Source of the DNA: Branchiostoma lanceolatum
Taxonomy: Eukaryota > Chordata > Leptocardii > Amphioxiformes > Branchiostomatidae
DNA: 64,000 nt
Direction of reading: 5' to 3'
NCBI RefSeq assembly: GCF_035083965.1
Contig: NC_089732.1
Location: 1,656,883-1,720,882, forward strand
In this document: in pieces, positions 1 to 64,000 of the stretch
Numbering within the stretch: the first letter of the stretch is position 1
Layout: each line of letters begins with the position of its first letter
Made by a program: the position numbers and the translations under genes
Notes under the pieces: generated by a model
The model's database searches: none
The model's input: only the letters and a program-made list of their open reading frames with translations
Told to the model about the DNA's origin: nothing

Positions 1-259
1 GTCTTTTCCGATCAGTTCAGTTCATCCTCAGTGACTGAGATGACACCAGTGCCTCCAAATGTACATGTCAAGCATGTCAGAGCGAAGTTCATCAAAAAGG
101 GGTTTTAGAACCTTTCTAGCCATACACGAAAGAGTAATTACTAACCAGTGCGGATCTTAATAACCTGTATCCACGATTGCCCAAGATTTTCATGTATTAG
201 TACTATTGAGATTACCTAGCTATAGGGTGACCTTAGGTTTTTAGATAAGACGTTCTTAC

Positions 260-3200
260 CCGGAATGGACATAGACATCCGGATGGCGATCCGGATCGGC
301 ATGTCCGGAGTGGTCTTGACGTGGCAGTACTCCTCCATCTTAGCGTTCAAGTTCGTCACGACGATGCACAGCTCCGTCTCGTACAGCTTGAACAGCTGGA
401 ACAACACAAGGGGTCAGGATCAATTGTTCATTCATTCATTCATTCATTCATTCATTCATTTATTCGTTCATGAGCCTGTTCGTTCCTTCCTTCCTTCATC
501 CATTAATCCAACCATTCATTCGTCCTTCCTTCCTTCCTTCCTTCCTTCCTTCCTTCCTTCCTTCCTTCCTTCCTTCCTTCCTTCCTTCCTTCCTTCCTTC
601 CTTCCTTCCTTCCTTCCTTCCTTCCTTCCTTCCTTCCTTCCTTCCTTCCTTCCTCCATCCATACATTAATCCATTCATTTATCGATCCATGCATTCATTC
701 ATTCATTCATCCATTCATTAATTGATCATTCCTTTCTTCGTTATTCCTTCATTCCTTCCTTCCGTCATTCAATTATTCATTTTTTATCCATCCATCCATC
801 CATCCATCCATCGATGTCTTTATTCATTGCTCGCTATCGGGTGGGGGTAATGACCTATAGGGTAAGGTCAACAACATCGACATACATGATAGGTGTTGCA
901 CCTCCTTCCCCTTTAATGGTTTGTTCCACAACTTGGACTTTCATAGGCAGAGGTGAATGACCTACCGGGCAGGTGAACAAGACTACAGGTTCTTGGAAGG
1001 GAACCATGGAGAATACAGGGTAAGATGGTCTTCTTAATGCTACGGCCGCGTGGCGCGTTGGATACACCCGATCCCTCGATCTCGGAAGTTAAGCAACGCG
1101 CGGTCCGGACAGTGCTTGGATGGGAGACCAACCAAGGACGTCCGGATTGCTGTAGCCTCACGAAGCTTTCCACGAAATCGTCTTCCGGGAGGGACGTAAA
1201 ACGGGGGTCCCGTGCTCGAGGAGGTGCCTCGAACACGTTAAACAGCCTCATTACCCTACACATTGGGTACCTGCCTGTGGCACTGGCTGCAAATACACCT
1301 GATATTATTATTAAAAGGGCAAGCAACACTGTAATGAAGCGTTATGCTCTTGAAGTATTCATGATAACATAGATAATGTTTGCATGTCAGGTTTGGAGCG
1401 GGGTTAACGTTACGTTATACTTTATAATTAACATTAACGTCTTGTGTGTTCACTGGCTAATGATCGCTAATCAACTTATTAAACCAAACATGTAACGCTA
1501 CAGCTAACGTTAACCAAACGACCAACAAAGTAAGCTGACCAAGCAACCGATTAAACAACCAACCAATTTTGTTAAAAAAAACAATTTTGCATCATTTTAC
1601 TGGAGGCGTGAAATCCCTTGATATTTACTACTGCCTAATTTGGCAAGTTGTTCCCTCCCTTCTTGATAATGGTACGGTCCGATGTGCTCTTTGACCTCTG
1701 CTACCTGCGTGTCGTATCGTGTGACAGGTTCTCCACAACTCACACCGGCAAGACAAAATGCTGAATACCGGGTAAATATGCGTCTATAGCCAGGACAAAG
1801 TAATTTCCCTTCCTCCTAAGTGTGTTGGCAACTTGTGGACGACTTTTGGAGTTCCAGAGTGGTAGAAAAATGGAGTAGAGCACTGATTTTTGTATGGGGG
1901 AGGGGGGCGAAGGGCATTGCTCTACTGACAACAGATCTACCAGATAGGCGTGGTGGGAGTTGGTTTGTATAAGTTACGCCATGTGTTGTTTTAAAGGCTT
2001 AACTCTGGGTTGAGTATTTATTTCTACTGCCTCATTTTTTATAGTATTTTATATCCGCCAGTTTACTAAGCTTGAAACGTTGTGTGGGTTTGGCTACATT
2101 CAATAATTTTACTTACAGACGGGTTATAGGTTAACGCATTGAATTTAAGAGCTTTCAAATACTCCGTTTTGCTTTTTGTCTATAAAACAGTGGTATTCCT
2201 GTCTGGGTAATTGAATCTCCATCAGTTGAGGTCTCTAGAACTAGGCTCTCCTTCTCTTGGTCTCGTTTATATAGGGTTAAACAAGAGAGAAATATGAAAT
2301 AGGACGTTTGAGCTGTGACCTCATATCACTACTCGGTAATATGTGGGAACCTTTAGCCCCTTTATCTGATGTGTTGGTAGAACAGGTTTTGTCACATTCC
2401 ACAGTGCCCTGATGTAACTCAGGGGTGATTCATTAATGAGTGATGTTACTCAGGGGTGGTTCAGTAATGCTAATTTCCAGTTTCAAAGTTTGCTTTAACT
2501 TAAAGTAAGTAACGTTACTACTGTGAAGTAAGTAATGTAACTTTAAGATATATTTGAAAAACAACATACAAAACTTTGTAATAGAGCCGAGTTCTGAAAT
2601 ATACTAGTAGAACTTTGCAACAGAACAGCTTACAGTTACAGATGTGATCTATGTGGCAAAGACAGGATTGTTTAGCCATAGCTGAAGCTGTAGGGCTGAT
2701 GTGAATTAAGGGTTTTACCATGGTCAATATTGACCAACAGAAGCCATATATATATATATTCAAATAGGGAGACAATGCTTGTTTGTTTGATGTGTAAGAT
2801 TTTGTATCACAGTATGGACATTTAAAGACAGTTATACTTCAGAATCGCTGATCTTTATGTGATATTTTTTCTACAGGAAGCTCGCAGGTCGTACCATTTT
2901 CATCTCAGGGGCGAGCAGGGGGATCGGGAAGGCCATCGCCCTGAAGTGCGCTCGAGATGGAGCCAACGTTGTCATCGCGGCCAAGACGGCAGAACCCCAC
3001 CCCAAACTCCCCGGCACCATCTACACAGCAGCTGAAGAAAGTACGTCTTTTTAAAACACTTAAAAGGAAAAAATGAGGGTTTGAATTCCTGTTTCTAGGG
3101 CATCGTTGGGGCTAAGAGATTTTGCTTTCAATTGCACAAAAAAGTACAATTAAATGTCTCTTTTTATGAAATTGGGTCACACTAGTAGGTGATATCTATA

Positions 3201-6200
3201 ACAACAGATGAAAACATGGGACCTTCATTCATTCTCTGACCTATAAGTTTTTAGATATTCCACAAAGGTAGTATTTTGAGGTTGTTGAAGGATTTGCCTT
3301 TGATAGCATTTGTAAATTCACCTTTGTTGGACTTTTATCACTCAGTTGAAGCAGCGGGAGGAAAATGTCTACCATGTATTGTGGACATCCGGTATGAGGA
3401 CCAGGTATGTAAAGCTCAAATCAATGTATCAATGTGTGAACAAGGCATATCTTGCTTTATTCTAGCTTTCATGGATTTTGTTTTTTAAGGAAACACCAAT
3501 GTGGACAGTTGATTCTAGGATCATGATTAAATATTGAAAACAGAGTCTGAGGGTAAAGACTGTACCTTAGTACACTCAGTTTTATGGAGTGAATGCAGTT
3601 AGATTCAAGTTTTCCTTCTAGCCCTCTGCTTTCATGTTACCTTCTAGCTGAATTTTTATCATGAAATGTCAGAGATCCAAGGAAGTAGATTTGTGTTAAG
3701 TTAACACCATAAGATGTATAGGGCGGTGCCCATCCCTATTTCATAGCCCTGGGCCACACTGTGGTGCAATCACTGCAGCAGGGGGCTAGTCCACTGGCAG
3801 TGGAGTGTGTTTAACTTCCATACTGTTTCAGAAGTATGTACCATTCTTATAAAGTCTTTGGTATGACTCAATGCGCCTCTTGTCCAGAGGTGTCCTACCC
3901 GGGGCTTGAACCCGGGCCTTCTGGTCCAAGTGATTTGAACCAGATGTGGCTAGTAACAGAAGCGCACCCCAGTAGTGTGGTCCAAGCATAAAACCATGCC
4001 GCACACGCATACAGGTGCAGTCAGCGGTGGAGCAGGCGGTTCAGAAGTTTGGGGGGATCGACGTCTTGGTGAACAACGCCAGCGCCATCAGCCTGACAGG
4101 AACCCTTGAGACTCCCATGAAGAGATACGACCTCATGAACGGCATCAACGCGAGGGGGACGTATCTCGTGTAAGTCTAAGACAGACTTCCCTTGCCTTGG
4201 AAGATCTACATGTTGCGTTAAGAACAAACAAAATCCTGAGCGTAATCTATGAAGGAAGGTTTAGATGTTACTCTCTAACTTGTGTAAAGCTTCAGAGATC
4301 AAGACAGATTGACAATGGCTTTGCTGCATGTGTGTACATGTATATGTGGTTCTAGTGGGTAGGCTACTAGTACTGAAAGGGCACAGTCCTTATAAAAAGT
4401 TGTATACTGTAATTCTTGATTTGTTAACTGTAACTTAATTTTAGCTGATTTAACGGTCACTAGTCAACAGCTAGAATTTCATCATCGCAAATATTTGATC
4501 ACTAATATTCGAGACAGTAATGTTTGTTCCCACTGTTGAAATTAAGTGCCATGACCTACTCCATTCTCCCCCAACCGCTATATTTTCCTGCCGGTATATT
4601 AAAGTGATTAACAGTAATTAGATGTTCCACCATTCATGAAAACAGTGTATTCTGTATCTGTCTCTCTTGTCACAGCTTGAGGAAGATTAGATCTTTACGT
4701 TTTCTCCTTTCCCTACAGTTCACAGAAGTGCCTTCCGTACCTGAAGGTTGGAAAGAACCCGCACATCTTAAACATCAGCCCTCCCCTCAACATGCAGCCG
4801 CACTGGTTCAAGGGACATGTCGGTAAGGAGGCTCACAAGACGTCTTACAAGATGATAGAGCATCGTCTTTCATTTGCTTTGCCTCCAAGTTTTGCAAACA
4901 GCAGAAGCAACCCTGACCAGCATGCCTTAGTTTTAGCACTCTAGAACCAAAACTTTTATAGGCACATGTTTATACAAATTATAGGTAATATTCTATTTAT
5001 TGAAGTTTGTATGTAGATGTAAATTCCTGCCCAAAAACCTTCACTTGAAGGCTTCAGTTTATTAATAGGATGCTGGGAATGATAGTTTTGGGCCCTGGTT
5101 ATATTGTTTCTACTGGTATTTCATGTTTACAAGATGAAGCTCTTTTTGTCCCTAGGTGGCAGCTGTTAATGCTACAAGGAAGTAATTGTCTCACCAAACT
5201 ATTCCAAGCAGTGTTTGTAATTACATGATCAAAATAATTCCCTAGGTGATGATGCAATCTGCTCTACAATAATTCTGATGACATGATCCGTTATACCCAT
5301 ACACAGCCTACACCATGGCCAAATATGGCATGTCCATGTGCGTACTGGGCATGGCAGAGGAGTTCAAGCCTGACAGGATAGGGGTCAATGCCATTTGGCC
5401 TCTGACCGGTAGGTGGCTGGGGGTCAAGTGTCAGGGAGAGGTTAAAGTTCAGAGGTGATCAGGCAAGCTTTACATTTGAAAAATTTAAAGAGAATGTATT
5501 TTTTTTTAAAGTAGGACTAAATTTTATTAGTTGCATTTTACAGTTAAAAATCCCAAAATATCTGAAAATCCCAAAATTTAATGAAATTTAGTCATGCTAA
5601 AGATACACCAAAGTAGCCACAAATACAATTTGTCACCTCTAGCTTCAACCTCTCCTGTATGTTGTGTGTTTGCTGTTTGCTTAAGGTGTGTTTTCTTCAC
5701 GTTGTTACAGCCTATACCATGGCCAAATATGGCATGTCCATGTGTGTGCTGGGTATGGCTGAGGAGTTTAAGGCTGAAGGCATAGCCGTGAATGCACTCT
5801 GGCCTCTAACTGGTAGGTTTTAAATATGTCCATGGTTACAACCCAAACAAAATTTCAAGATTTTGGTTTTCTACAGAAAATGCCAATCATGGATAGCAAT
5901 GAAATGGACTAATGCAAATTTTGGAAGATGCAAGTATTGTGATAAATCTTCAAGATCTCATTAAACTTTCTTGTTACCCTATGGCGTAATTCACCACAAG
6001 TGGAATTCTGCAAATAGTCGGCTGATCATATATTCATTAATACATGATTTATTGGAAAATACCCCCCCCCCCCCTGGAGGTTAATACTTCGTCTAAAAAC
6101 ATGACTTTTATGTTCATTGCCTTTCTGTTTCTTGCAAAATGTAAACTAAATAAAAAAAAGATATATTTTTGATTGTCTAGGGAAGTGATTTATTTTGTCA

Positions 6201-9200
6201 ACAGGCTATTCCTTAAGCCAGCGTCACATTTCATGCAAGCGTCGGCCGACTTTGTAGATCGCCCGAAGCTCGCCGAATTTCAAAATCTCGGGCGACGTCC
6301 GTCGAACACTAAAAACTAAAAATTCCCCATGAGGTGGTACCATCTCACCATCTCTTGGACATGGACAAAGTCAGTATCGACTAACCTGGTAAAAGGCCAA
6401 TATTTGGATCAACTGTTATTTCTAAAAATCGCCCGAAGCCCGCGTTATCGACAGGACGTCGGCCGTACTTCGGCCGAAAATGCACATTTGAAGCTCGCCA
6501 ACACGTCTGCCGAGCTAAATTTCTTATTTGTGACGGGGGCTTAAGCTTTTGAAATTAAAGACATGTGTTCATTGCCTTTGTGCTTCTCCCAGCCATCTCC
6601 ACAGCTGCGATGGACATGCTGGCTGGGAAGGACGCGCAGAAGCAGTGCCGCAAGCCGGACATCATGGCGGACGCCGCGTACGTGATGGTCACGCGGGACA
6701 GCGGGTCGTACACCGGGAACTTCGCTATCGACGAGGACGTTCTGAAGGAGGAGGGGATCCAGGACCTCGACCAGTACGCCTGCGTTCCAGGTACGGCTTT
6801 TTGTCTTTGCTCTAAACCCAATCAACTAAGTTTTTGTGGATTAATCATTTTTATTTTAGGGAGATTTATAGGCCAGGAAAACTTTAGTGTTGAGGGTATA
6901 CAGGACCTTGACCACCCTGCGTTCCAGGAAGGACTTGTCTACTTGACTCAAATTAACGGAGTTGAGCTCTTTTCTTAATATGTGCATGTGTTATGGAACA
7001 CACAATTTATTTCCTACTTCTAAATGGGGATACAGGCCTTGGGAGGACTTTCTTCTTTACTGAGTTATTTTGGCCTGCTGCCCATCCTTTGGCATGACTG
7101 AGTGCATTAGATTTGACATATACAGGAGGTCCATAAGATTAAGCCTGTGTGTCTCCTAAACAACTTTGGTTTGTAATTTATTTCATCTGTTTTCCATCTC
7201 CAGGCCATCCCCTGATGCCAGACTTCTTCCTAGACATCTCTGCTGAGGAGTTGAACAAGAATCTTAAGATTCCCCAGGCCTCAGCTGGCGGCGCGTCTCA
7301 GGCCGCGGCAGGAGGGCCGGCCCAGACATTTGAGGTCATCAACTCTCTCGTGTCTGAGGACATCCTCAGCTCGGTGAAGGGAGTCTTCCAGTTCAACCTC
7401 ACAGGTGAGTTTGGATTGGCCACTTCTGTCAGACTGGTGAAGTTTACACTGGTATATATGTGGTATACAAGGCCACACCAATTTAATTTCTTGGTTAACA
7501 ATTTTTTTTTTAAATTGTAGCACGACGACATCTTTAAAACAGAAAGCTGGGGTGAAAACTCGCACCTGACCCTGTTCACTCCCTGAAACTGTGTGCACCA
7601 AAGTACAAACTTTCCTCTGAGATTCTGTTTTCATGTTGATTTTCCAATTTAGCATCTTTTCAAAAATTCCGTTAACCAAGAAATCAAATTGGTGTGGCCT
7701 AAGCGTAGCCTGAATTGGTGACAACAAGGTTATGGGTCTGAATCCCGGCAAGAGGTCTCAACCAAAATGTTATGAGTAACTGCAGTCATCAGGAGGGGCC
7801 ATTTGGCCTGAGGTCCAGTGCAGTGCATGTAAATATGCTCTCTGCACTGGGTCGGTTTATGCTATGATTAAGTAGTCAGTAAGTCTAAGGATCTTGGAAC
7901 AAAGCTATGGGTCTGTATCTGAGCTACAATTGTAGAGCTCTCGACCAGAGGGCCAAAACAAAGGCTAGTAGTTTCACTTGTTTGGAGGGGCATCCACTGT
8001 TAGATGAGGACCACACCTCAAGCATGATTTTGTCTTGTGTGATAACCACACTTCAGTGTAGGGGTAGGCCTGGTGTTCAATGACTGAAAACAAATCAGTA
8101 GTGAATTTACCAATTGCAAGACCAATAGAATTGGAAGACAACTTTAGCCATCTTCAACAATCTCAATAAACAAACCCACACAACATCACTGTTCCCTATG
8201 CCAGAACTAAGAGACTGCAGCAATCCTTCCTGCATTGCGCCATCAGACTGTACAACAACTTACCTTCTGGGTCCTGAACATTCAGTCTTCCGTTTGACTT
8301 GACTTGAAGTAATGAATTTTTTAACAGCTTTGTACTTGTCTTTGTACATTGGTGATGATTTTAATGACATCTGTAACAAATGGTACTCAATTCAGAGGGA
8401 ACACAGCTGTGTTCTCTCTGCCTATGTACATTTTGAAGAAATGTGTAATAATAATAAAGTAAAAAAAACACCAAAGAAAACAACAACTGTTCCCGCAGGT
8501 GCTGAGGAGGGCACCTGGCACCTGAACCTGAAGGACGCCCCCGGCGGCGGGGGGGCGGGCGAGCCCGCGGGGAAACCTGACGTGACCATGACCATGACCT
8601 CGGAAGACTTCGTTAAGATGTTCGCGGGAGAAATGCAGCCGACTCAAGCCTTCATGTCGGGTAAACTCAGGATCAAGGGCGACCTGGCCATGGCCATCAA
8701 ACTGGAGAAACTCATGGGGGTGATGAAGTCTAAGTTGTAGGGGGGAAGGTTTAACAGGCTGTGTAGTGTGTCCACCCAGTAACATCAACTGGCCACATGT
8801 TGTTACACTGTATCCGGGTTGTAGTGCTACAATGTATCCACCTGATAACACCGACTGGCCACATTTTGCTACACTGTATTCTTAGACTTGTGTCATTTTG
8901 AATTGAGGAACTTGTGGGGCAAATGAAGTCCAAGTTGTAAAGGGGGAATGTTGAACAGGCTGTATAGAAGGTTGTAGTGCTACATTGTATCCACAATAAC
9001 ACCGACTGGCCACATGTATTGCTACACTGTATTCAGGTTGTTGAGAGTGCTACAATGTATCCACCTAATAACACCAACTGGCCACATATTGCTACACTGT
9101 ATTCATTCATAGACTTAGTGTCATTTTGAATTGAGGAACTTGTGGGCATTATGAAGTCGTTACGGAAAAAATTATCAAACAACCACATAATGCTACACTG

Positions 9201-11085
9201 TATCAACTTGTAGACTGAGTGATATGTTGAACTGAGAAACTTGTGGGCCAAATGCAGTCATTGTAAAATGTGGAACAAGCTTCAGCGGACGTTGTAGTAT
9301 GTTACAGCAAATACAATAAAGTCTATTATCATCATCATAAAGTCTATACAGTAGTGCCTACATTTTGTATTCAGGCATAGACTTGGAGCAGAAATACAGT
9401 TGACAGATTTAGATATGTGCTGGTTTTCTTACATAGACATTAACATACATGTGGGGAGATATTGTATTATATTCATGGCCGCTTTATTACTCAAAGTGTG
9501 CTTGTTCAAAGAAGTGTTGTTATACATGTATATTCTGTCATATGCTGCAACCAATGCAAACTAAGAATGGTCTTTGAGTATCTCTGCAAACTGTACACTT
9601 CTTACCTATTGTTATTTTTCATAACTCTGATTTTGTTGTGTAGCTGTGAAAAATAAACATCAAAGCCTCAGAAGTTTTACAGTTTTGTTCTTGCTGTTGT
9701 TTTGATATTTGTGACTTCAATGAAATCCTTGCGGTCAAGATTTACCAATAACTAGATTTTGCAGTCAGAAACATCATGTTTTGAATGTTTAGACCTTTAC
9801 AAGGCTTTTACTTTCTAATGTTAATAGTTCAATCAGACTTTCCTCACTAACATCCCTCCTTTCCGTTGAATGGTTTGTTCCTTAACGTTACCTATGACCT
9901 TTCACCCTGTACCGCGGGGTCAATGACCTTAAGAGCAATTGGGAATTACAGGCTAGGTGATCACATCACAACTATGGAGAATACTGGGTAAGATGACTTT
10001 CTTAAGTTTCTCAAGAAAGATGCATGAGTGTTCTAAGAAAGAGAGTAAGATGTCTTTTACTTTGTTAGGGGATGCAGGGAGTGTTGGCGGTAAAGCCTAA
10101 GCCATATGCATGTTACACAATTAGTCAAAAGCATATACTAGTATTCAGTACAATGGCTGATAGTACAGTAACACCAGCATAGTATGAAAACAGATGTCTA
10201 AGCCAGGAGCACCTGCAAATTACAGGAGTCTGATACCCTATATTTTGTAGAACAAATCACTGTATTTGGAGGCACCTAAAATGTGTACTAAGGTTCTTTG
10301 TGTCAGGTTAACCACAAATGTATTTACATAGCCCATGTGTCCTCTTTCCCCAATGTTGTTTAGGCAACCAAAGCGTTTCTTTTTTCAAAAGGCAGCAAGA
10401 GCATAAAATAGCTCTTCCACTGTAATGTCATGATAGATATAGGACACATGAACTGCTCTAATGTTGTAGGCAGTCAGAATTGGATTGTTTAAGACCTACA
10501 ATTATCAATTGACAACTTTTATATATAATGTATTTCAGAGAGCTAGCGGGCCGTACCATCTTCATCACGGGGGCGAGCAGGGGGATCGGGAAAGCCATCG
10601 CCCTGAAGTGTGCTCGAGACGGAGCCAACGTCGTCATCGCGGCCAAGACGGCGGAACCCCACCCCAAACTCCCCGGCACCATCTACACAGCAGCTGAAGA
10701 AAGTGAGTCACAATTTCCTCATCTGTGTTTCCACTATAAAGTTTATAAAACTTGTGGCAGGTGGCGTCTGTGTGGCATAGTGGCAGAACTCCGGCTATGA
10801 ACCAATGAGACCCAGGTTCAATCCCCAGTGGAGTACCCAGACATGTCCGGACATGACCCCAGACGTTGTGCCCTTGGGAAAGGCATTTAACACATATTTC
10901 CCATGTCCTAAGCCCAGCAGTAGGGTTTGGGTTGGCGTTAGGAAGGGCATCCAGCCGTAAAAACTCTTGCTACAAAAAAGACTTGCACTTGATGAGGAGT
11001 TCTGGGGCTCCTCATCAAGTGCAAGCTCCCCCATCCATGTGCAGGCACGTTCAACCCCCATATGATGGGAAATATAAGACGTAAA

Positions 11086-11174: not shown

Positions 11175-14100
11175 CCACCAGACCTGAACTCTTTTTGGCC
11201 ATGCTTGAGAAAATAAGTATAGAACAACCTACTTAGTCAATTGCTTTCCTTGATACAACAACATGGAATGAAAAAAATACTAATTGCTGATTTTACAGAT
11301 TTTTCAACATTAGGGCTTTTTTGGGGCTGTTCTTTAGTGTTCCTTTATACTAGATTGATACCCTACGATTGTTTCTAATCTAAAAGTTTAAGGCAACTCT
11401 CAAACTGCCTGGTAGCCTAGCTGAATCATAAGTTTAAGGATCTGTAGAGATTCTATTTCTTTCCTCTGAGGCAACTTCCTAAAGATATCGATGTTTCTTT
11501 TAGTTGAGGCAGCAGGAGGAAAATGTCTACCGTGCATTGTTGACATCCAGTTTGAAGACCAGGTCCAGTCGGCGGTGGAGCAGGGTTAGGGGTTAGAGTT
11601 TAAGGGTTAGAGGTTAATGTTTGATGTAATGTGTTGTCTCTCCCCAGTTGAAGCGGCTGGTGGGAAATGTCTGCCGTGTATTGTAGACATCCGGTTTAAG
11701 GACCAGGTGCAGTCAGCAGTGGAGCAGGGTTAGGGGTTAGAGGTTAAGGGTTAGAGGCTACTGTGTGATGTAATGTGTTGTTTCCCCCCAGTTGAGGCAG
11801 CGGGAGGAAAATGTCTGCCGTGTATCGTGGACATCCGGTTTGAGGACCAGGTGCAGGCGGCGGTGGAGCAGGGTTAGGGGTTAGAGGTTAAGGGTTAATG
11901 TTTGATGTAATGTGTTGTTTCCCCCCAGTTGAGGCAGTAGGAGGAAAATGTCTGCCGTGTATTGTAGACATCCGGTTTGAGGACCAGGTTCAGTCGGCGG
12001 TGGAGCAGGCGGTTCAGAAGTTTGGGGGGATCGACGTCCTGGTGAACAACGCCAGCGCCATCAGTCTGACGGGAACTCTGGACACGCCCATGAAGAGATA
12101 CGACCTCATGAACAATATCAACACAAGGGGGACCTACATGGTGTGAGTTGATGTAGTTTTTTGGATGTATAGCTATATCAACAAAATATGTGGAACCTGT
12201 TAGGATCATCAAGTACAGTAGGGGCATTCCACGGAATGCTCTCTATGCCGATGAAAACTTACGACCTCATGAACAACATTAACGCAAGGGGGACCTTCAT
12301 GGAGTGAGTTTAAGAAGTGTCGCTTTTGTCTATCTTTTCAGCATAAGGCCACAGTAAGTAGATTTTATGGATAACATCCTCTGCAGACCCAAAGCAAATG
12401 CAAGCGCACAAAAAAGAGGGGTAAAAATTAGAACAAGATGTCATCCACTTTAACACAAACAAAGGTGGCCCAGACTGTAGATGTGTCTTTTTCCAACTTA
12501 TGCGAATTAAGTTGAAAATTTATTCATTCTCACTTTTGCCACCCATGTCCAGGTCTCAGAAGTGTCTTCCGTACTTGAAGAAAAGTCAGAGGAATCCCCA
12601 CATCTTAAACATCAGTCCTCCACTCAACATGACGGCCGTTTGGTTCAAAGGACACGTTGGTATGGATGTTTGTTTGTTTCGTTTATTTGTTGTGGTTTGG
12701 TTGTTTACTTCCTGTAACGACATATCACTATTTTACTACAGTAACTTTTTATTATGATGTCTTTTATATCTTATTTTAGAATGGGCTCTCTTTGAACCTA
12801 AGAAAAATTGATTGTGATACAATGATGTATTATGGCTTTAGCTAAGTCCATATCATGCAAATAGTTCAAGCAATACCAATCTAGTGGCTGAGTGCAACCA
12901 TAGAGTTAAAGGGAAGAAAAACTTGAAAAGCCTACTCTACAGTACTAAGCTAAACCTAAATGAAATTTCTTGTCTCCTTTTTCAGCCTATACCATGGCCA
13001 AATATGGCATGTCCATGTGCGTGTTAGGGATGGCTGAGGAGTTTAGGGATGATGGGATAGGGGTCAACGCCCTCTGGCCCAGAACTAGTAAGTGTGGACA
13101 TATCTTTGGTCTAGTGATTAACAATTCCAGTTCAAATCCCTAGTAGTTTCCAATGGTGTACCCTTTGCAAAGAAAGTCTACATCAGATCTATTTCTCGAC
13201 CTAGCTCCGGTTAGGAACGTCCTTTTAGATATATAGTAGTATCCAGTATTTGATTGTTGGGGTCCCTGACAAGGGTGGACTGCAAATGGCTAGTAGTCTT
13301 CACACCATGTGGGAAAGTTGGATGGTACACAAAACCCATTCCATATTGCATGTGCCATCTGAAGTACATGTATCACAGGTTCACTTTATCCAGCTTTAGA
13401 ATTAACAATGCCTTATGTTGATTTCCTAGCCATCGGCACTGCTGCGATAGATGCCACGGGCCGAGGCAGGGGCGGGAGTCGTTCCACTGATATCATGGCG
13501 GACGCTGCGTACGCCATGCTAACACGGGACGGCAGATCGTACACGGGAAACCTCGCCATCGATGAGGATGTTCTGCGAGACGCCGGGGTCCGAGACTTCG
13601 AGCAGTACTCCTGTGTGCCAGGTGTGCTCCTTATGTCTTTAAGACTTGCCCCTAGCCTGATGATACCAAACCTCAAGTGGTCCTTTGTTTTATCAGCCCT
13701 CTACTCTAGAAAGCTGGTGGCAAACTTTTCAGGGCAGTGGGTCCTTCTAAGTTGCCATAGTGATTGCCATGCTGCGCTCTTATAATATATTGTATTTTGG
13801 TTTCCTTAGTGATGTCTATACTGGGTGCCTATTGGTACATTGTACTTCATTCTTTTGGCTGATTTTCTAAGTACTCACTATTAGAAAAACTCCATAGGAA
13901 AAATAAACAGCCCCAAACAGCAGAATTTTGAGTTTGACGGACAAGAATTGTTCCTCTTCAGTGGTAAAACAGACCAGGGAAAAATACGAACTTTTTTTTC
14001 TTTCAATTACCCCCAGAATTGCAGAGTAGCTGTTTACAGAGATGTAGTGCCCTGCAGACATGTAAATACCAAGCAGACAACTGGTGATCAGTCACAGTCA

Positions 14101-30780: not shown

Positions 30781-30970
30781 AGCCACCCCCATTTTACGAC
30801 AGTTGAACGTATGGAGTCAGTTGTATTTACGACAGTCGTGCTGTGATGTTGCTTCTGGGGAGCCTGTAACGTTTCGCGGTAATTTCGCGTAAAAACCTCG
30901 GAGCTCCCGAGAGACGGCGGACGCACTGTACTGGTAGCTCTACGAAAGTTGCCCCAAACACGCCAAGACG

Positions 30971-34029: not shown

Positions 34030-34600
34030 GCTGGTTTTCGTTTCCGGTTGCGCCCAGCAGAACTGGAGAACACACCGGCGCTATTGTTGTAAAGCACATT
34101 GTGTAGTTGCAAAAGGTATCAAAACCGAAAGTTCTGCTGCAGTACAGTAACAGTACAAACCACTAGCAGGCCCAAATTGTAATCATTTTGAGGTCTCATC
34201 AAGACCTACGGACGAACCAAATATCAAGATAATCCATCCATGCATTCTTGAGTTATCGTATTCACATACACACAGACAAACACTCACCCTAAAACATAGC
34301 CTTCATGGCGAAGGTAATTATTACAATTCACATTTAAGATGCAAATAGCACATAGCCAGAGTACCAGCCTCCGTAGTGACTGATGGCTCAAAAAAAGTTG
34401 CTTGCTAACCACTTTAAGGAAGCGAATTTTTTTGAGCCAGCAGTCACTACGGAGGCTGGTACTCAGGCTAAATAGCACACCAATATGGATACAAAATGTC
34501 TGACGCAGCGCTGTTTTTCGTTTCCGGTAATGTTCCCAGCGGAACTGGAGAACACGGCTGCACTGCTGAAGTGCGAGGACATTTTCCACTATGGGGTCCA
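34030..34600 (+). repeat. Two decoy copies of the G-gamma coding exon 5' edge
   Basis: The block TTTTCGTTTCCGGT...CCAGC(G/A)GAACTGGAGAACAC, which spans the intron end, acceptor and first exon bases, occurs at 34035-34090 and 34510-34590 and as the real exon at 34790-34870. The second decoy extends through GAAGTGCGAGGACAT but lacks the real ATG context. (CA)-rich CACAAACACAGACA repeats follow at 34637-34690. Confidence 0.8.
34353..34469. mobile_element. Hairpin MITE (copy 1)
   Basis: Inverted ends AGTACCAGCCTCCGTAGTGAC and complement, with interior TTGCTTGCTAACCAC. The same family is at 43163-43276. Confidence 0.8.
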
Positions 34601-40121: not shown

Positions 40122-47409
<7,288 letters not shown>

Positions 47410-50900: not shown

Positions 50901-51982
50901 CGTTAGGTACGCCATTGCCATGTCGTTGCGGGACAAGCAGCGAGTGATCTACACCACGCCCATCAAGGCTCTGAGTAACCAGAAGTACCGCGAGCTGTAC
51001 GAGGAGTTCCAGGACGTCGGGCTGATGACCGGAGACGTCACCATCAACCCCACCGCCTCCTGTCTCGTCATGACGACAGAGGTTGGTTTGTCTGTTTAAC
51101 ATTACCAAGGAACAGAGTACACAAGTTTTTGGAGTTCTTTTGTTTTGCAAATGAAAAAGTTTTGTACTAATTTTATGTACTGCCATCTTACTAGTCTCAT
51201 TTTGCAATTCATCATTTCTTCACTCCATAGATTTCAAGGATCATGCTGTAACAAAAGTCTAGCTAAGTGGTTACATGCTTTTGCACGTACTGTTAGTAAT
51301 GATGCTATTTTCTTCCACAGATCTTACAAAGCATGTTGTACTGAGGCTGAGAACTTATATGCATGATGTGTAACTGTTAGTTATAATGCTATTTTTTTCC
51401 CCAGATCCTGCGGAGCATGTTGTACCGAGGTTCAGAACTGATGAGAGAAGTGGCCTGGGTGGTGTTCGACGAGATTCACTACATGAGGGACAAAGGTACG
51501 TCTTATGTTTTTTCCACAACATTGTACATTCAGTACTGTATTCCTGATTAAACTATGTGTGCCAGAATACAGCATAACTGCCCTCTGTTTGATAATCCTG
51601 CTTCTAGATCATACAAAGTCATGTATTTAGGTTGGGGGTGTCCCTGAATACAACTTTTTTTTACATTCAGTTTACATTTTTCCATTAAGCTTACAAAGTT
51701 TACCAATAATGTTACAATCATAACCAATGTCTGACCGTTCCCAAAGTTCATCCAGTTGCTTGAGTAACTGTTACCTTTTGTAGTTACATTATCTGCCGTT
51801 TTAACAAGCTGACATGTCTGACGTGTGTTTTGCCTCCAGAGCGAGGTGTGGTTTGGGAGGAGACCATCATCCTCCTGCCCGACAACGTGCACTACGTCTT
51901 CCTCTCCGCCACCATCCCCAACGCCAGGCAGTTTGCAGAGTGGATCTGCTGGCTACACAAGCAGGTGGGTGTCTATCAATCG

Positions 51983-55000: not shown

Positions 55001-58000
55001 GGAAGCAAAACCAACGTCAACACAGATACATACAAGATACGTGTATTGGTTCAACTGCCTGTTTTCCAAATATGCCTAGGAATCAAAAAGTCATAACTAT
55101 CGAACATTCATTTTATTTGACCCCTCAACATTCTACAACCTTCTCAGCCAGATATAGCTGTATGTCATATAGCTGTATGCATGAGGCTTTCACCTTTGTA
55201 ACTCATAAGAACTTTAGTCCAAAAAGCATAAAAATCATTTCAAATTGTTCCCTTATGGGAGGCTACAAAAAGAAATTACAAATCTTTAAGTCAACTTTGT
55301 GAGTCCTGAAATGTAGCCATGTCAGAGACCCAATGTGCACAGTTTATAATCACAGCAGACTCTACTGCCTGTGGTTTCTGACCCACCGGCCTCTCCCCCT
55401 TCCTTCCCCCCAGGCCCTGTTTGCTACAGAGACCTTCTCCATGGGGCTGAACATGCCGGCCAGAACTGTCTTGTTCACCAGCGCGCGCAAGTTCGACGGC
55501 AAGGACTTCAGATGGGTGAGTATATGTGCAGTGTACTTTGATGCTCATTTGTTTTGAAAGGTTTCCTTTTGTTTGATTTCTTTTCTCTTTATTCTAATAC
55601 TCTCATCCGATTCATCATATCAGGCGGCTTGTCCGGACTAAGGCTGCTCTCTCCCTCCAGGCGTCACAGTCCGCCATTAGTTGGTCTAATACTCTAAATT
55701 CTAGGAAAACACAAAATTGTGATGAGCATAGTAAGAGAGCAAAGGAGACAGTTATGTACAAAAAGATGGGTTAGTTGCAACCACATGCAAAATCTGGCAT
55801 GCATAAATTAAACTTTTGCATCAACAGGGTATGACCGTTAACCTCTAACCTTTACCCCGTGACCAGGTGTCGTCGGGTGAGTACATCCAGATGAGCGGGC
55901 GGGCGGGGCGGCGAGGCCTGGACGAGCGAGGAATCGTCATCCTCATGATCGACGAGAAGATGGGGCCGAGCGTCGGCAAGAACCTCCTCAAGGTGACGTC
56001 TTAATCTTTAAACTTCATCCTTAGGCATTGTCTTGGCAAGACTTGACTTGAACTTAACTAGAACACAGATACTTATTCATCATCTTGGCAAGACTTGACT
56101 TTAAGTGAAGTCTTATCCTTTGCACTGATTCTTTGTCAGTTCTTGGCAGGTGTCTTCTTACAGTGAATCCCTGATGTCAACATGTTTAAATTCATATGTC
56201 AAGTCCTAATAAGAAAAGTGCAGGTATTTCATTAAGATAACTGTGCAGATTGAACAGCCTTCATGTTTTGAATGACTCCTACATGTAGCTCTCTTGGTCC
56301 TTAGATTTTTCATTTTGTCCAAGAACCTACATGTAGTACTTCAAATTTTGAAAGTCTAAGAGTGGTCTTCAAACATGACGTTGAAAACAATAGAAAATTA
56401 AAGACTGGTCTTCAAACATGTTGAAAACACTACAATATTTGAGAGTTGTCTTGGAACATGTTGCAATCAGTTAAACAATATTCATAATGTGAAACAACTT
56501 TTTCGCAGCACAATTTGCGACTGAACTGTCCTGTCCCCCTTACCCTGTAGGGAGCCCCTGACCCCCTCAACAGTGCGTTCCACCTGACCTACAACATGGT
56601 CCTGAACCTGCTGAGAGTCGAGGAGATCAACCCGGAGTTCATGCTGGAGAAATCCTTCTACCAGTACCAGAACTACAGCTCTATACCAGCCATGATCACT
56701 AGTAAGAACTCTACTTTTCTTTAATGCCTGTGCCTTTGTGCTTTTACTTATACTTCAGTGTTCATATGTAAGGTTGTCGAGGTAAGCAATGTATCCCTGT
56801 CCCTTATATTAGAAGAGGCAGTCTTTTTTTCACAATATGCAGCCTGACATATTACACATTTTGGAATAGGATTTCAATCAGCTTGTAGCCAATGTTTGCC
56901 CAGCTGATGGGATGTTTCATTTTTGTTCCTAGACTCTCGCAGTCTTACCCAAAAAAGATGATTTAGTAAATGCCATTTACTACATGGTATTTTGTGTTCA
57001 AACTTCAAGGTCCAAAAACCTTTCTTGCTTCCCCATTGAGTGTCTTTCTCTGTCCTCAGAACTACAGAAGCTACAGGAAGACTATAATGCCATGACCGTG
57101 CCCGAGGAAGATTCCATCACGGCGTACTACAAGCTCCGTCAGCAGCTGGACAAGCACGGGCAGGAGATCGAGGCATTTATCCAGAAGCCGAAGTACTGTC
57201 TGCCCTTCCTGCAGCCCGGACGCCTCGTCAAGGTGCGCAACGAGACGGACGACTTCGGCTGGGGCGTCGTCATCAACTTCCAGAAGAAGGCCAACCAGAA
57301 GGTCTGGATTCTTTATTGGATGTTCAGAGGACCAAAGAATACTCAATGTTTATATTGAATATTTGTTGTATCGTTATGTTTTGTTAGTATGGTGGCTTTG
57401 AAAAGGTGGTAACACTTCTTCCACCATAGCCCTCTTGTGTTATGGTGAAGCACAATAGATAGATAAATACGTTCTGTATCAGGTAGCCATATATTAAACA
57501 TAAATGCAATGTATGCTAGGATAGCTCTATTGGAGATCAACCTTTATTCATGTATGCTCCAAGTCTGTAATCAAGAGTATGATAGATGATGATGATGATG
57601 CTAGGACAGAAATAAAACTATTGTGAAGTCTGAGCCCTTTATTCTTAGGTTCCTTGTTTTTAGGTTTCTTCTCCCAGGGTGCAAATTCATTATTTCCCTG
57701 CTCTACCCCCAGGCGCCCAACAACAGCACGGCGGAGCCGCTGTACGTGGCAGAGGTTCTCCTGCTCTGCTCCAAGGAGTCCGTGCGGAACGCGTCCACGG
57801 AGTCCGCCAAGCCATGCCGGCCGGGGGAGAAGGGTGAGATGGTCGTGGTTCCCATCATGCTCCAGCTCATCCGCTCCATCAGCAGCGTGCGGCTCTACAT
57901 CCCCAAGGACCTGCGACCTCTGGACAACCGGGAGAGTGTGCTCAAGTCCATACAGGTTAGGGGTCAAGTTTGTACAGGTCAGGGGTCAAGGGTTGAAACC

Positions 58001-61000
58001 TCAGCAGTGACACCTGTGAAAGCGTGCTTAAGCCTGTATAGGTCAGAGGGCAAGTCCATACAGATCAGGGGTCAGGTCAATATAGGTCAAAAGTCAAGGC
58101 CACACAGGTCAAAAGTGAAGTGCATACAGGTTAAAAGTCAAGTGTTTAAAAGTCAAGAGTTAAAGGGTAAGAGTAATTTTGTGTGAATTTTCAAGTACAT
58201 TTCACGACATGCTCAATTTTTAGTTACTTGAGTTAGCGAATTAGAAAAAGATTGTCACTATTCAAGAAGATGTGTACTACCAGCATTTCCTTGAGATTTT
58301 TTTTTCAAATGATACGTAAGCTGTAAACTTTTTGAATTGTTCTTCTGTTTTGTATACAGGAAGTTCAGAGAAGATTTCCCCACGGTGTGCCGTTACTGGA
58401 CCCAATAGAAGACATGGGCATCAAGGACGACCAGCTCAAGACAACTGTCAGGGTGAGGAGGGCTTCTTAAAGATGAACTGTGTAGAATGTTTAGTCTATG
58501 CAAGGTTCTTGTCAAACTGCAGTACATGCAAAAGAATGGTCTGTCTTGTTTATAATCTCATGCAAGTCAAGCAAAAACAACCTCACCTTGCTCTGCTGTG
58601 AGAACTACAGTGAATGCTATAAAAAGTAAATCTTGTGGAATTACAGTGATTGTGCACACATGTACAAATGTAGGAGGCCAAGTTCTTTTTCCTCACCACC
58701 AGTATGTGCAGTGTTGATTGTTCATGAGCCTTTTTTGTCTATTTCCAGAAAATCGAGGCGTTTGAGCACCGTATGTACTCCCACCCGCTCCACTCTGACC
58801 AGAGACTTCCAGAGCTGTACTCACTTGTGGAGAAAAAGGCTCAGGTAAGGTTTGCTGGTACTGAGGTCACAGCCAGCCATTTTCTTATGTGAGTGATTTA
58901 GCCTTGGCTCCAATTCTGCGAAATTATAAACTCCAATGTTTTCATATTACGGTCGGCTGGTGAACCGAAAGCAGCCAAATGTGAAGTGAAGAAGGAGTGC
59001 ACCATAAATGTTTTCATGTGAGTTACAGGATGTTTTCAAAGGAAAAATATTCTGTATGGTCCTAAAGAATGGAAATTTTTCACTGTGTCCTTATGCTTGT
59101 ACAGTTGACTGGTGAGTTAAAAGCTGCTAAACGTGAAGAAGACACGCACAAAAATGTTCAATCTTTAGGACAGGTACATGTATCACCTGTTTCTCTAGTT
59201 GGCTGGCCATGCGTGACCTGAAGGCAGCCAAATGTGTTTTATAATTTGTGAAATTTCTGCTAGATTTTCCTGTCACAGTTGACAGGAGAGCTTAAGGCAG
59301 CCAAACGTTAAGTAAAGAAGGCCTGCACAAAAAGTGTGATTTTAAACTCCTCTGTTTCCCTGTTACAGTTGGCGGGAGAGCTGAAGGCAGCCAAACGTGA
59401 GGTGAAGAAGGCGCGGACGATTATCCAGATGGACGAGCTGAAGTGCCGTAAGCGGGTGCTGAGGAGGCTGGGATACGCCACGACCGCCGACGTCATCGAG
59501 ATGAAGGGCAGGGTCGCCTGCGAGATCAGCAGGTGGGAACAGGGTGGTTGTTTTGTAGTGTTTAACTAGCAAACTCTTCACTTAATATGTACAAAAATGT
59601 ACAAGCTGTGCCATTGAGCAATGGGGGCAAACCCCTACTCATCTTCAGAGATATAATGGGTTCTTGAACTTCTGTTGTGACTTGATGTTGTAAAATATTT
59701 TAAGAAGGTTGCATCAATTAGTTACATCTTGGTGCAACTCAAAAGTGAGGGCGAAATTGTATATGACTGAAAATATATTCCAAATTACTACCGTACTACC
59801 AGATCCTAAAAATGCCTTCCCAGATATCCTCCTGCCTGACTGCAAATTCACACTTTTTTTTCTGTCCAGTAACTTTTCCTCCTAACATCCAACAGCAGGT
59901 TGCAAGGTGACTGTTATTCTCCAAGCAGAGGTTTTGATCAGGGGCGATCTTAAATGCTAAAAATCACAGCCACTACAGAGATTGAGACCTCTGCTTGGGG
60001 AATATTTCCATCTTGGGATGGAGCAATATAAGTGATTTTTTTTCCTCTCCAGTGGTGATGAGCTGCTCCTGACTGAGATGATCTTCAACGGAGTCTTCAA
60101 CGACCTTGATGCTCACCAGTGTGTGGCTCTTCTCAGTGTCTTTGTCTTCCAAGAAAAGGTGAGAACATTCTCATATCATTGACTGAGATACTGTAGAGTT
60201 CCTTTAGGACACTCCAACCAATTTACTGGACAATTCTTCTGAGATAGAGTGTTATAATGCCTGCAGTTGTCTAAATTGTAGCTAGTCTTTGTCTCCTATT
60301 TTATTCCATTATGATCTTATTGGATTTCTTTTTCTATCATTGTGTTGTTCCGCTGCAGTATGTAAAGCATCATGTCAAGCTGCTTGCCTGGACTTCGTCC
60401 CCTCTGCTTCTCCAAGCATCTCTCTACCTTTAATCAACATAATCTTGTTTTTTCCCCACTCCAGGCATCTGAGATGCCCAGACTTACAGAAGAGCTGGCC
60501 GGTCCTCTCAGACAGATGCAGGTTTGTTTGTTAATGAATTCATTGAAGTTAGTGCACCGCCCAAATGTGAACAGCCTCATGATCGATCTGTAAAGCCACA
60601 TTCTTAAGCTTGGCTTTAAAATGCCTTTCTATGTATCGACCCCGCTCTAGTAGTCAGCAAGAAGAATCATTAGCCCCAATGCCATAGAAACTGATGCTTT
60701 AGTTGTTTTTTAGATTTTTTTTAACAGTAATTTCTGTCTAACGCAGAAATCATGATGCCACAAAGGCGCCTAAAAGGCTGTCTTTTAACCTAGGCCTCAT
60801 GTTGAAACTCAGCTTGCAATTGGTTCTAAGATTTCATTCCATGGATCCCCCCCCCCAGGAGTCAGCGCGGAGAATCGCCAAGGTGTCGTCGGAGGCGAAG
60901 ATGTCGATTGATGAGGAGGACTACGTGGAGTCGTTCCGCCCCCACATGATGGACGTGTGTCACGCCTGGAGCAAGGGCGCGACCTTCGGACAGATCTGCA

Positions 61001-62030
61001 AGATGACCGACATCTTTGAAGGTCAGAAACCATCTTTAATTTCATTTAGGCTGGCAGAATACAGCAGATAGAATAGTGTGTCATAATGATGGTACGCTCT
61101 CTTTTCTTGGGCAGCAACTTTTGTAAGATGGCTGATATCTTTGAAGGTCAGAATGTTTTTTCGAGGGATGGGGTGGGGAAGCAAATAAGTGTGTGTAGTT
61201 ATACATAATGTTGGTAGAATAAGTTGACCAATACACAATCTGATACATACTATGTATTGAGGTCTTTTTAGAGCAAGGGCAGCGACATTTGCAAGATGCC
61301 ATTTGACAGTTTATTTCACAGGAATCTGTGATCGCTGGCGCTTGGGGAGACTTGTGTGACTGCAGTACTATTACATCCTGCTAGATGGCATCATACATGT
61401 GTTTTACCATAATTTGTTTCTTTGTAATCATTCCTCAGGAAGTATAATCCGCTGCATGAGGAGACTCGAGGAGTTGATGCGAGAAATGTGCCACGCCGCG
61501 AAGGCCATCGGGAACACCGAGCTGGAGAACAAGTTTGCTGACGGTAAAGTTTCATGATTTTTTCTTGTCCGGTAGTTTTGTACTGTAATTTTGTGGCATT
61601 AGATCATTGAAATCTTTGTGAAAATGTTTACAATAAGGATTCCAGTCAATAACTACTATAAACTAACAAAGAAATAAATTCTGTAGTCTTAAAAGGAATG
61701 CTTAGAAAGTGAAACCGTACAGTAATATTGATCAAAGATGAATTTTATTTGCCATGTACAATCCAGCATAACAATTTGCTCCGAAATGTAATGATTCATA
61801 TGTTACGGGGAACCTAATTACTGCAATTTTTGTCCTGTATCTGTCAGAATTAATTTAACACAGGACACACTCACATCACTATTGTGTATAGCAACAATAA
61901 TTATTCATTGAAGACTGTATATAAGATTAAAGTGCAATTTTGCTGTGTTTTGAGCTTGTTTTGTTTTGTTTTTCCAGGCATCACCAAGATCAAGAGAGAC
62001 ATTGTGTTTGCAGCCAGCCTGTACTTGTGA
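47991..62030 (+). CDS. MTREX: Exosome RNA helicase MTR4 (Ski2-like)
   Basis: Twenty-five exons: 47991-48121, 48792-48909, 49308-49439, 50022-50134, 50907-51081, 51405-51495, 51840-51964, 52228-52326, 52927-53029, 53548-53679, 54204-54283, 54499-54609, 55414-55515, 55867-55992, 56551-56701, 57060-57301, 57713-57955, 58360-58452, 58749-58844, 59369-59532, 60053-60158, 60465-60521, 60859-61021, 61439-61543, 61978-62030. The total is 1036 residues (human 1042). Features in order: N-terminal DELFSVFE; Walker A AHTSAGKT (154-161); DEIH box (245-248); motif [12 protein letters not shown] (512-521); the arch/KOW insertion (about 550-830) with [14 protein letters not shown]; and the C-terminal DSHCT helical domain ending [14 protein letters not shown]. 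The protein unwinds RNA 3'-5' and feeds it to the nuclear exosome as part of TRAMP/NEXT-type complexes. No lesion was seen. Poly(A) signal AATAAA at 62376-62381. Confidence 0.97.
48464..48540 (+). mobile_element. tRNA-like SINE head
   Basis: A box TTAGCCTAGTGGTTGG and B box AGATCGAACCCC at tRNA spacing, MTREX intron 1. Confidence 0.6.
48610..48729. mobile_element. TACTGTAAA-type MITE
   Basis: Contains ATAAACCACCGCGAACATTT and ends TGCATTTACAGTT. The left end (GCTACAGTATGGGACAAAAA) has the inverted ATGTTCGC block. Confidence 0.6.
49535..49730 (+). repeat. Two decoy copies of MTREX exon 3 3' edge
   Basis: ATATGAACCTAAGGA...TGTCCACCACATCTGAGGTAG (about 49548-49597) and GAGGACTGTCACAGAGCTGTCC (49686) mirror the end of exon 3 ([17 protein letters not shown]) and the intron that follows (TGTCTTTGAGTAGT). 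Confidence 0.75.
50388..50470 (+). repeat. Interspersed repeat (copy 1 of 2)
   Basis: GTACTCCAGTCAGAAGCTCT...GAGATTACCTGGTTGTGT recurs at 53416-53495. Their translation shares EALKKVSDR, but no longer frame exists, so I cannot name the element. Confidence 0.6.
50530..50625 (+). repeat. Decoy copy of MTREX exon 5 5' edge
   Basis: TTCTACAG then TATGCCATTGCCATG..., encoding [15 protein letters not shown], copies the first 45 bases of exon 5 ([15 protein letters not shown]) about 370 bp upstream with a good acceptor. The frame stops soon after. Confidence 0.8.
51228..51366 (+). repeat. Two decoy copies of MTREX exon 6 5' edge
   Basis: CCACAGATCTTACAAAGCATGTTGTACTGAGG (51317 on) has a good acceptor and copies the exon 6 start (ILRSMLYRG) with TGA in place of CGA. 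A weaker copy starts near 51228. Confidence 0.75.
51977..52026 (+). repeat. (CAAT)n microsatellite
   Basis: Twelve or so CAAT units beginning 12 bp after the MTREX exon 7 donor. Confidence 0.95.
53416..53500 (+). repeat. Interspersed repeat (copy 2 of 2)
   Basis: Second copy of the 50388 repeat. It is flanked by ATATTTGGAGTTTCTTTTAA at 53380 and its complement at 53490, so it may sit inside a foldback. Confidence 0.6.
53717..53924. mobile_element. MITE with ATGCTAYGGTCACAT termini
   Basis: Ends ATGCTATGGTCACATTTC and GATATGTGACCGTAGCAT. Inner GGGGCCCGGCCGG pairs with CCGGCCGGGCCC. MTREX intron 10. Confidence 0.75.
54650..54870 (+). mobile_element. tRNA-derived SINE
   Basis: A box TGGCGTAACGG (54658), B box GGGTTTGAATCCCC (54700), body CTTTGGGAAAAAAGGTACTT and CTCCACCCAAGTGTAAAAAT. 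MTREX intron 12. Confidence 0.7.
57956..58160 (+). repeat. Minisatellite derived from MTREX exon 17 3' edge
   Basis: About eight units of CATACAGGTCAGGGGTCAAG. The copy at 58020-58045 (GCGTGCTTAAGCCTGTATAGG) still resembles the exon end SVLKSIQ plus its donor. Confidence 0.75.
58930..59335 (+). repeat. Four decoy copies of MTREX exon 20 5' edge
   Basis: Copies near 58950, 59103, 59199 and 59277 of the acceptor plus [15 protein letters not shown]. The last reads CACAGTTGACAGGAGAGC then TTAAGGCAGCCAAACGTTAA, with a stop. Each is followed by similar intron text (GCACAAAAANTGT, TTTCCCTGTTACAG). The real exon begins at 59369. Confidence 0.85.
59916..60003. mobile_element. CTCCAAGCAGA-type MITE, short form
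   Basis: Termini TATTCTCCAAGCAGAGG and CCTCTGCTTGGGGAATA; short interior. It ends 49 bp before MTREX exon 21. Confidence 0.7.
61100..61310 (+). repeat. Two decoy copies of MTREX exon 23 3' edge
   Basis: GGGCAGCAACTTTTGTAAGA with GGCTGATATCTTTGAAGGTCAGAA (61111-61156), and AGCAAGGGCAGCGACATTTG (61274-61298), copy the exon end [18 protein letters not shown] and its donor. Confidence 0.8.
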
Positions 62031-63010: not shown

Positions 63011-63512
63011 GCATCTGAGATTCCCAGACTTACAGAAGAGCTGGCCCCCAGACAGACTCAGCGGCAGGTGGGTTTGTTGATTTGTTAGTCTTTCTATGCA
63101 CCTACCGGGGTATTGAAATGTACCACTCAATGTTGACAGACAATCAAGGAAACAAATCAGCACGGTCCATCTTTTATGCTGCATCCAATTCAGTTAATCT
63201 AGATTAGAGGAATTTTCTGTACATATAATGCTTGGTTTCAAAATAAATGCCATGATGATAGAAAAGTATAATGCTTTTGTAAATGACAATCTTTTTACCA
63301 GTTAAGTTTCTTTCTAATATAAGTCAGGATGCCAATAAGGCCCAGACCTTCAATATGCAGCCCATCTTTGATTCTCACATCGAAACATATTTCAGGAGTC
63401 TGCAAGAGAGAAAGAATATTGAAGGTATCTGCAGAGGCATAAATGTCATTGACAAAGAGGACTACATTCTGCTCCCACCAGATGGATCTGAAGATGACTG
63501 ACATCTTTGAAG
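63011..63512 (+). pseudogene. Broken duplicate of MTREX exons 22-23
   Basis: 63011-63067 is the same length (57 nt) as MTREX exon 22. It is preceded by CAG and followed by GTGGGT, and encodes [19 protein letters not shown]. 63396-63512 matches exon 23 from ESAR to DIFEG but is shortened (117 versus 163 nt) and has an in-frame stop after ESAREKEY. The introns are retained, so this is a segmental DNA duplication rather than a retrocopy. It lies about 1 kb beyond the MTREX stop codon. Confidence 0.85.
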
Positions 63513-64000
63513 GTCAGAATTGTTCTACAATGTGGACAGAATTCCACCTAGTTCATATTTTCATAACTTAATTGAATTTAATGATACAACAAGCTGTGAG
63601 CATCAACTTTCCTCATTATATCAACAAAAGGAAAGCCTCTTTCACTTATAATGCTTGATATATTATAACTGTCAAATAAAAGCTGTATGATTGTGATCCT
63701 TGTGTCTGAGCATTGTATTTAAAAATTATTTACTATGTATTCATTCATAGCTTGCATTATTCACTAGAATTGCAATTGAAGTATTCCTTTTATGCCTTTG
63801 TTATTATATGCCCACAATGTTAATCTAGTTGTAATGTTTCTTATATACATGTATAGCTTATGGTACGCATTCAAGGTAAATGAAGATGCTAATTTAGAAT
63901 TTCCTGATTAGCTATAAGTGAGATTCAAATTCATGTGCATTTACTGCTGATATGGTCAATGTCCCATTCAATTTTTCTTATCGTTGGATGACTTTGGTCC
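63513..64000. other. AT-rich flank
   Basis: No exon, RNA gene or repeat of note is seen between the MTREX exon fragment and the right edge. Confidence 0.5.

Follow-up and report, generated by a model that had tools for sequence, protein, structure and literature searches.

We identified 24 local duplication events in a 64-kb window from the amphioxus Branchiostoma lanceolatum (contig NC_089732.1, positions 1,656,883 to 1,720,882; coordinates below count from the first nucleotide (nt) of the window), and 16 of these events cover a splice junction. The partial copies of exon edges, here called decoys, consist of an exon part of 6-81 nt, the splice site and an intron part of 2 to ~80 nt. We put the probability at about three in four that they are mirage-type local duplications, largely neutral and biased towards exon edges, in which an exon end, its splice site and a stretch of intron would be copied into the touching intron, with the copy sometimes expanding into a tandem array and all copies then decaying. 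The phenomenon is already known in the amphioxus literature as the ‘mirage’. New here are its density, a control that compares edges with introns, and a side rule, by which partial copies lie only in the intron adjoining the copied edge.

The duplications were detected by BLAST of the window against itself (dust low-complexity filter, offsets of at most 1500, score of at least 40). This search returned 45 matches, compared with none in eight dinucleotide shuffles (top shuffle score 33). A first-pass annotation, made from the sequence alone, had listed sites where an exon edge is repeated beside the real one. We found an alignable copy at all 24 of these sites, mostly as strong self-BLAST matches, and the site given as 6877 corresponds to the copy 6892-6936 (score 42). 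Weak sites were aligned in place (49548, z 7.8; 49686, z 6.2; 61274, z 4.4; 41278, z 4.6; 45815, z 11.4), and for each of the five none of 500 shuffles aligned equally well. All six gene families are affected, as had been stated. The site at 8926 is not a splice site; it lies at the stop codon and 3′ end of HSDL2-like gene a, within an array at 8705-9298. The site at 61274 is genuinely copied, but the copy (61272-61307) comes from the exon interior at 60970-61007 and ends 14 nt before the exon edge.

We modelled 55 exons and 102 splice junctions across seven genes: two tandem HSDL2-like genes (a and b), a patatin-like gene, UQCRH, a G-gamma subunit gene, a ZnT-type cation-efflux transporter gene and MTREX. 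Exons were anchored on coding segments, and splice sites were picked by a weight matrix and phase. In the event test, a junction had to be covered by at least 3 nt, and the null was provided by 2000 circular shifts of the junctions over 2800-61600. The null mean was 6.0 (standard deviation 1.7, maximum 12), and no trial reached the observed 16. Under other event cut-offs the observed value was likewise reached in none of 2000 trials, save under the strictest (score 60, 8-nt overlap; 10 of 17 events), where two trials reached it. Confining the shifts to the four larger genes left 15 events, of which 11 covered a junction (5.2 expected); 6 of 4000 trials reached this value. The junction set is a revised one: three doubtful junctions were dropped, three positions corrected and one exon added (103 to 102). 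The earlier 103-junction set gave 16 of 22 clusters covering a junction (5.7 expected).

One alternative is that short duplications arise everywhere in introns and that pairs touching an exon are recognisable for longer because one copy is conserved. Events away from splice edges do exist. Eight of the 24 cover no junction, namely 8705-9298, 28601-28851, 30599-30806, 33902/35086, 34263/34667, 50477/50625, 41232-41343 (13.5 nt from a junction) and 50536/50905 (an exon-head copy starting 1.5 nt from a junction). We therefore repeated the self-alignment on non-exon letters only (score of at least 34). Of the 18 events in this exon-masked search, 9 still lay at most 6 nt from a junction, compared with 0.35 expected over 2000 random placements (maximum 3; none reached 9). 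Slow decay or conservation of exons alone is thus insufficient to explain the edge bias, and ascertainment through exon conservation was set aside as its cause. Mismatch shares are also alike in the exon (110/945) and intron (76/623) parts of the aligned copies (the row for edge 45899 is excluded), contrary to what selective survival of exon-touching pairs suggests.

A probe test addressed the same alternative with 50-nt probes (z of at least 5). Of the junctions, 100 of 102 were testable, each against at most 800 nt of adjacent intron only; exon-centre probes compared each exon with each flanking intron, and intron probes were run against at most 800 nt downstream within the same intron. Copies were found for 17/100 junction probes and 1/80 exon-centre probes (4/80 at z of at least 4), so that copying of exon interiors, which are conserved to the same degree, is rare. 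Outside genes 2/132 probes had a copy, both within the minisatellite at 30.6 kb. These three rates suggest that exon edges are themselves duplication hotspots. Intron probes scored 14/166, and a contrast with this raw count is modest (p 0.048), as the ordinary-duplication reading would have it. Eleven of the 14 matches, by our own assignment from position, lie in or beside junction-derived arrays (probes 11663, 11763, 16147, 16247, 40230, 41688, 41788, 49600, 58016, 59105 and 59205). Their removal leaves 3/155 (Fisher, p 1.7e-5). The least clear removal is 49600, where the matched intron sequences lie directly behind the two decoys of edge 49439; if it is kept, the count is 4/156 (p 7.4e-5). 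The retained probes are 35506 and 56353, which caught intron minisatellites, and 61082, whose match also pairs the two decoys of the 61021 exon. Taken together, these results make it unlikely that ordinary duplication accounts for the pattern. A first version of the probe test (score 40, 1 kb) went unused because decoys could not be separated in it from independent duplications; its counts were 15/103 for junctions, 77/1032 for introns, 18/252 for near-junction introns, 27/467 for exon interiors and 3/977 for intergenic probes.

Within the window, the event, exon-masked and probe tests thus support the annotation's proposal of a mutational habit that recurs around exon edges; local duplications were not equally frequent at random intron positions.

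Placement of the copies follows a simple rule. The scan at a score of at least 40 gave 16 junctions that have partial copies, and at all 16 the copies lie only in the adjacent intron, with none across the exon. This count excludes a whole-exon pair (four edges) and three junctions for which one side alone was searched; 50907, where homology begins 2 nt before the exon, is included. Both kinds of edge are affected: the unbiased scan found partial copies of seven donors (6790, 12142, 16612, 28473, 42840, 57955 and 61021) and nine acceptors (11929, 28309, 34812, 36537, 40169, 41627, 50907, 51405 and 59369). Breakpoints are sharp, with flank z-scores of -2.1 to 2.9.

The side rule bears on a further alternative, in which decoys are relics of whole-exon duplications that once served as alternative exons and have since been truncated. 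The window contains one intact pair of this kind (5307/5711), differences between decoys and exons are biased towards third codon positions, and an exon-interior stretch of the patatin-like gene has been copied (probe 15676). Among relics downstream of an exon, however, acceptor edges should be roughly as common as donor edges, with the reverse for relics upstream. Since all 16 junctions follow the side rule, we regard this origin as highly improbable.

Several observations bear on whether the decoys could be used. We examined 23 decoys, a set that omits those of 41218, 45899 and 49439 and one near 59200. A GT or AG dinucleotide is kept in 20 of the 23, and 13 score at least as well as the real site or at most 0.5 bit below it. 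Predicted use of the decoy would, however, add an in-frame stop in 21, and the remaining two have no splice site. In three cases the copied coding part is itself disrupted: the copies at 51289 and 59278 contain stops, and that at 6892 has a frameshift. With stops or lost sites in all 23, the decoys are not usable exon variants, and the annotation's suggestion of a continual supply of new exon or splice-site variants finds no support here. The decoys are most likely non-coding passengers, with the real edge remaining joined to the exon body. A role as alternative or regulatory splice sites, kept by selection and biased towards edges through their longer life, would be in keeping with the preserved dinucleotides and site scores, the mainly third-position differences in exon parts and the one exon duplicated intact. 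Against it stand the added stops, the lost sites and the disrupted copies, along with the statement, in excerpts of a paper on amphioxus globin genes, that mirages leave regular splicing undisturbed (PMC3087553). We consider such selection very unlikely to explain the decoys.

The divergence of the copies was examined in 15 independent decoys. Outside CpG sites, differences fell at 7/158, 5/156 and 28/150 of codon positions 1, 2 and 3 and at 37/386 intron positions; at CpG sites the corresponding counts were 2/18, 4/18, 9/23 and 8/20. The third-position share (28/40) exceeds the 45% assumed for a decoy that decays freely while the exon next to it is constrained (p 0.0013). This excess is as expected had the decoys been copied from other coding alleles, given the high polymorphism of lancelets: the available text of a genome study reports single-nucleotide polymorphisms at 4.39%, small insertions and deletions at 9.29% of genome length and a mean synonymous rate of 0.070-0.075 (PMC4284660).

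Such heterozygosity could also mislead assembly, if two haplotypes had been joined at exon edges, making each decoy the edge of the other allele. Some exon parts do differ only synonymously (4/4 differences in the copy at 42575, 2/2 in that at 28843), and the globin paper, in the part available, mentions a mirage that had been assembled incorrectly in a draft genome (PMC3087553). Likeness to the real edge nevertheless ends abruptly in the intron, with no allelic intron continuing beyond it; arrays with three or more decoys occur (11502-12009, 41628-41997 and 58923-59337), and some decoys carry stops. Re-sequencing of an amphioxus PGBD5 gene is likewise said, in excerpts of that study, to argue against assembly error (PMC3902484). 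An assembly artefact therefore seems to us unlikely.

How mirage-type duplications might form is a more tentative matter. DNA repair or recombination involving two strongly divergent haplotypes would run within a conserved exon; where homology is lost at the exon end, the edge could be re-copied into the adjacent intron, and later slippage and unequal exchange would enlarge or shrink the array. We prefer this reading because it fits the edge bias, the side rule and the polymorphism best, yet we hold it as a possibility that is probably not the right one. We are equally cautious about the broader notion that, in a hyperpolymorphic animal, the end of homology between haplotypes at exon-intron boundaries may make these boundaries mutational hotspots, for which the odds appear rather low. 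If it were true, decoy arrays would record past exon alleles, and the rate of duplication should scale with heterozygosity across species. A template-switch join in the UQCRH gene, built from two local segments with a 9-nt overlap, is real in the sequence, but a tandem duplication followed by a later event would explain it too, and we made no use of it.

Several points weigh against edge-biased duplication as described here. The events are few and all lie in a single 64-kb window, and the contrast with unfiltered intron probes is the modest one given above (17/100 compared with 14/166). Among changes private to single decoys, only those of the HSDL2-like array favour third positions (8/11); in the other three arrays the bias is absent (8/29, with unreliable alignment ends), which weakens third-position bias as proof of allelic origin. 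The spaced edge events, with gaps of 89 to 976 nt, are not explained by simple tandem duplication. Finally, the mechanism of formation is one that we infer, and the window is a single sequence of the locus in which neither haplotypes nor recombination is visible.

About half of the edge events are arrays or near-tandem copies (11502-12009, 16104-16638, 40151-40405, 41605-41997, 45816-45936, 51289-51442, 57943-58166 and 58923-59412), and the other half are spaced copies. In the G-gamma gene, a palindromic element of 118 nt with 54-nt arms (34353-34470) takes up part of one gap. It is apparently flanked by a duplicated 10-nt sequence, AAATAGCACA, which is single in the other edge copy, where the element is lacking. 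The element is probably a later insertion, suggesting a way for tandem copies to become spaced.

The HSDL2-like genes carry decoys on the forward strand. In gene a, the decoy of donor edge 6790 (6892..6936) is a copy of 6751-6799 that has lost its donor and is out of frame, and the array at the coding end and 3′ end (8705..9298, forward strand) touches no splice edge. In gene b, acceptor edge 11929 and three upstream decoys form an array (11502..12009) of 144/137-nt units, each with 81 nt of exon head. The spacers that separate these exon-head copies contain telomere-like GGTTAGGG/GGTTAAGG stretches (11582-11900). The decoy of donor edge 12142 (12247..12318) copies 12086-12157 with an intact donor.

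The patatin-like gene has two decoys of donor edge 16612 on the reverse strand (16215..16431). An exon-interior stretch of this gene (15663-15704) is also copied to the adjacent intron (15865-15908; weak, score 35), and is the sole exon-centre probe (15676) at z of at least 5. The forward-strand decoy of UQCRH-like donor edge 28473 (28843..28890) copies 28456-28503, and a near-perfect palindrome (28713-28805, 46-nt arms with 1 nt between) lies behind the UQCRH-like exon and adjoins this decoy. Acceptor edge 34812 of the G-gamma-like gene has two forward-strand decoys, an older one (34016..34073) and one that copies 34744-34860 (34470..34588), and acceptor edge 36537 has a short one (35749..35775, forward strand).

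Five further edges have decoys on the reverse strand. Last-exon acceptor 40169 of the zinc transporter-like gene has two in tandem (40251..40405, ~100-nt unit), acceptor 41218 a weak one (41268..41291, z 4.6) and acceptor 41627 an array of 38/48-nt units (41628..41997). Donor edge 42840 has one decoy (42575..42628), and donor edge 45899 has several (45816..45898) in ~42-nt units. The remaining decoys are on the forward strand. MTREX donor edge 49439 has two (49551..49722). The decoy of acceptor edge 50907 (50536..50582) is one whose homology begins at the AG, and that of acceptor edge 51405 (51289..51358) contains two in-frame TGA codons. A 22-nt array adjoins donor edge 57955 (57956..58166), and four decayed decoys of acceptor edge 59369 (58923..59337) lie near 58951, 59104, 59200 and 59278. 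The decoy of donor edge 61021 (61122..61153) has an intact donor.

Two other features of the window lie apart from these edges. A 5S ribosomal RNA gene was found at 1038-1158 (60.9 bits). The minisatellite at 30599-30806, outside the modelled genes, has a unit of ~40 nt that holds the palindrome TGACAGGATCATCCTGTCA.

Gene identities rest on protein likeness. The top match of HSDL2-like gene a is human HSDL2 (3kvo), the UQCRH gene encodes a member of the hinge protein family, and MTREX matches human MTR4 with 1522 bits. HSDL2-like gene b belongs to the short-chain dehydrogenase family and takes its label from its likeness to gene a. At 14815-14930, gene b apparently lacks an SCP2 domain, yet its product ends, as does that of gene a, in SKL, a C-terminal sequence that targets proteins to peroxisomes.

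The first-pass annotation had held that copies never span a whole long exon. Gene a provides one exception, in which an entire 102-nt exon with a YTMAK stretch (5307..5408, forward strand) has a second intact copy (5711..5812, forward strand). The duplicated segments (5303-5414 and 5707-5818) are 84% identical, with like splice phases (2 to 1) and mainly third-position differences. We take the YTMAK stretch to be the YxxxK motif of short-chain dehydrogenases. Judged from sequence, the two are candidate mutually exclusive exons that may give two enzyme forms.

The HSDL2-like genes also differ by an intron. Gene a has a 610-nt intron (3405-4014) at CAG|GTGCAG (3346-4169) that is missing from gene b (11929-12142). 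The Rogers model, as cited in the globin paper, proposes intron gain through tandem duplication of exon segments that contain AGGT (PMC3087553), and potato RdRp (RNA-dependent RNA polymerase) is a case of this kind (PMC4974935). Gene b, without the intron, bears three decoys each with CAG|GT, and a duplicated edge of this kind could yield an intron in the manner of that model. We found no duplicated flanks around the gene a intron, and gain in gene a by the published route was set aside, as the sequence before the downstream exon is not clearly like a decayed copy. The difference may equally be a loss in gene b.

The duplications described here can be compared with three further known systems. 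Mutually exclusive tandem exon duplication has an anatomy matched by the pair 5307/5711; the remaining edge events differ from it in copying one edge, with no usable exon. Exon shuffling in lancelets, as the available text describes it, resembles our observations in being an unusually frequent exon-level rearrangement (PMC4284660), but it concerns coding-exon rearrangements seen on comparing species or haploid assemblies, and does not involve copies of an edge in the next intron.

The closest counterparts are the mirage minisatellites of amphioxus, described in excerpts on the globin genes BflGb6 and BflGb9 (PMC3087553) and on PGBD5 (PMC3902484), with Adh3 and troponin C cited there. These accounts describe short duplications across the intron-exon boundary, at the 5′ or 3′ exon edge, in units of 10 to 160 bp and often with GT/AG kept; one globin gene has 6 and 3 mirage units on two haplotypes, and Adh3 is somatically unstable (PMC3087553, PMC3902484). 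The part of the globin paper available to us terms the mechanism unclear (PMC3087553). The repeats in our window likewise span the exon-intron boundary (16/24 events) at both 5′ and 3′ exon edges, and the tandem arrangement of mirages is seen at 11502-12009, 40151-40400, 41605-41931 and 45816-45936, about half of the edge events being spaced. Among the literature matches listed, in which subscription papers are sparsely covered, none gives a genome-wide count of mirage copies. If exon edges are hotspots, they would steadily present the spliceosome with cryptic splice sites that it must ignore; they might also give rise to new introns and would mislead gene annotation. Whereas mirages have so far been described gene by gene, the window shows them at 17/100 tested junctions and across six gene families in 64 kb, with the edge preference tested against introns, and so turns an anecdote into a rate that can be measured in phased genomes.

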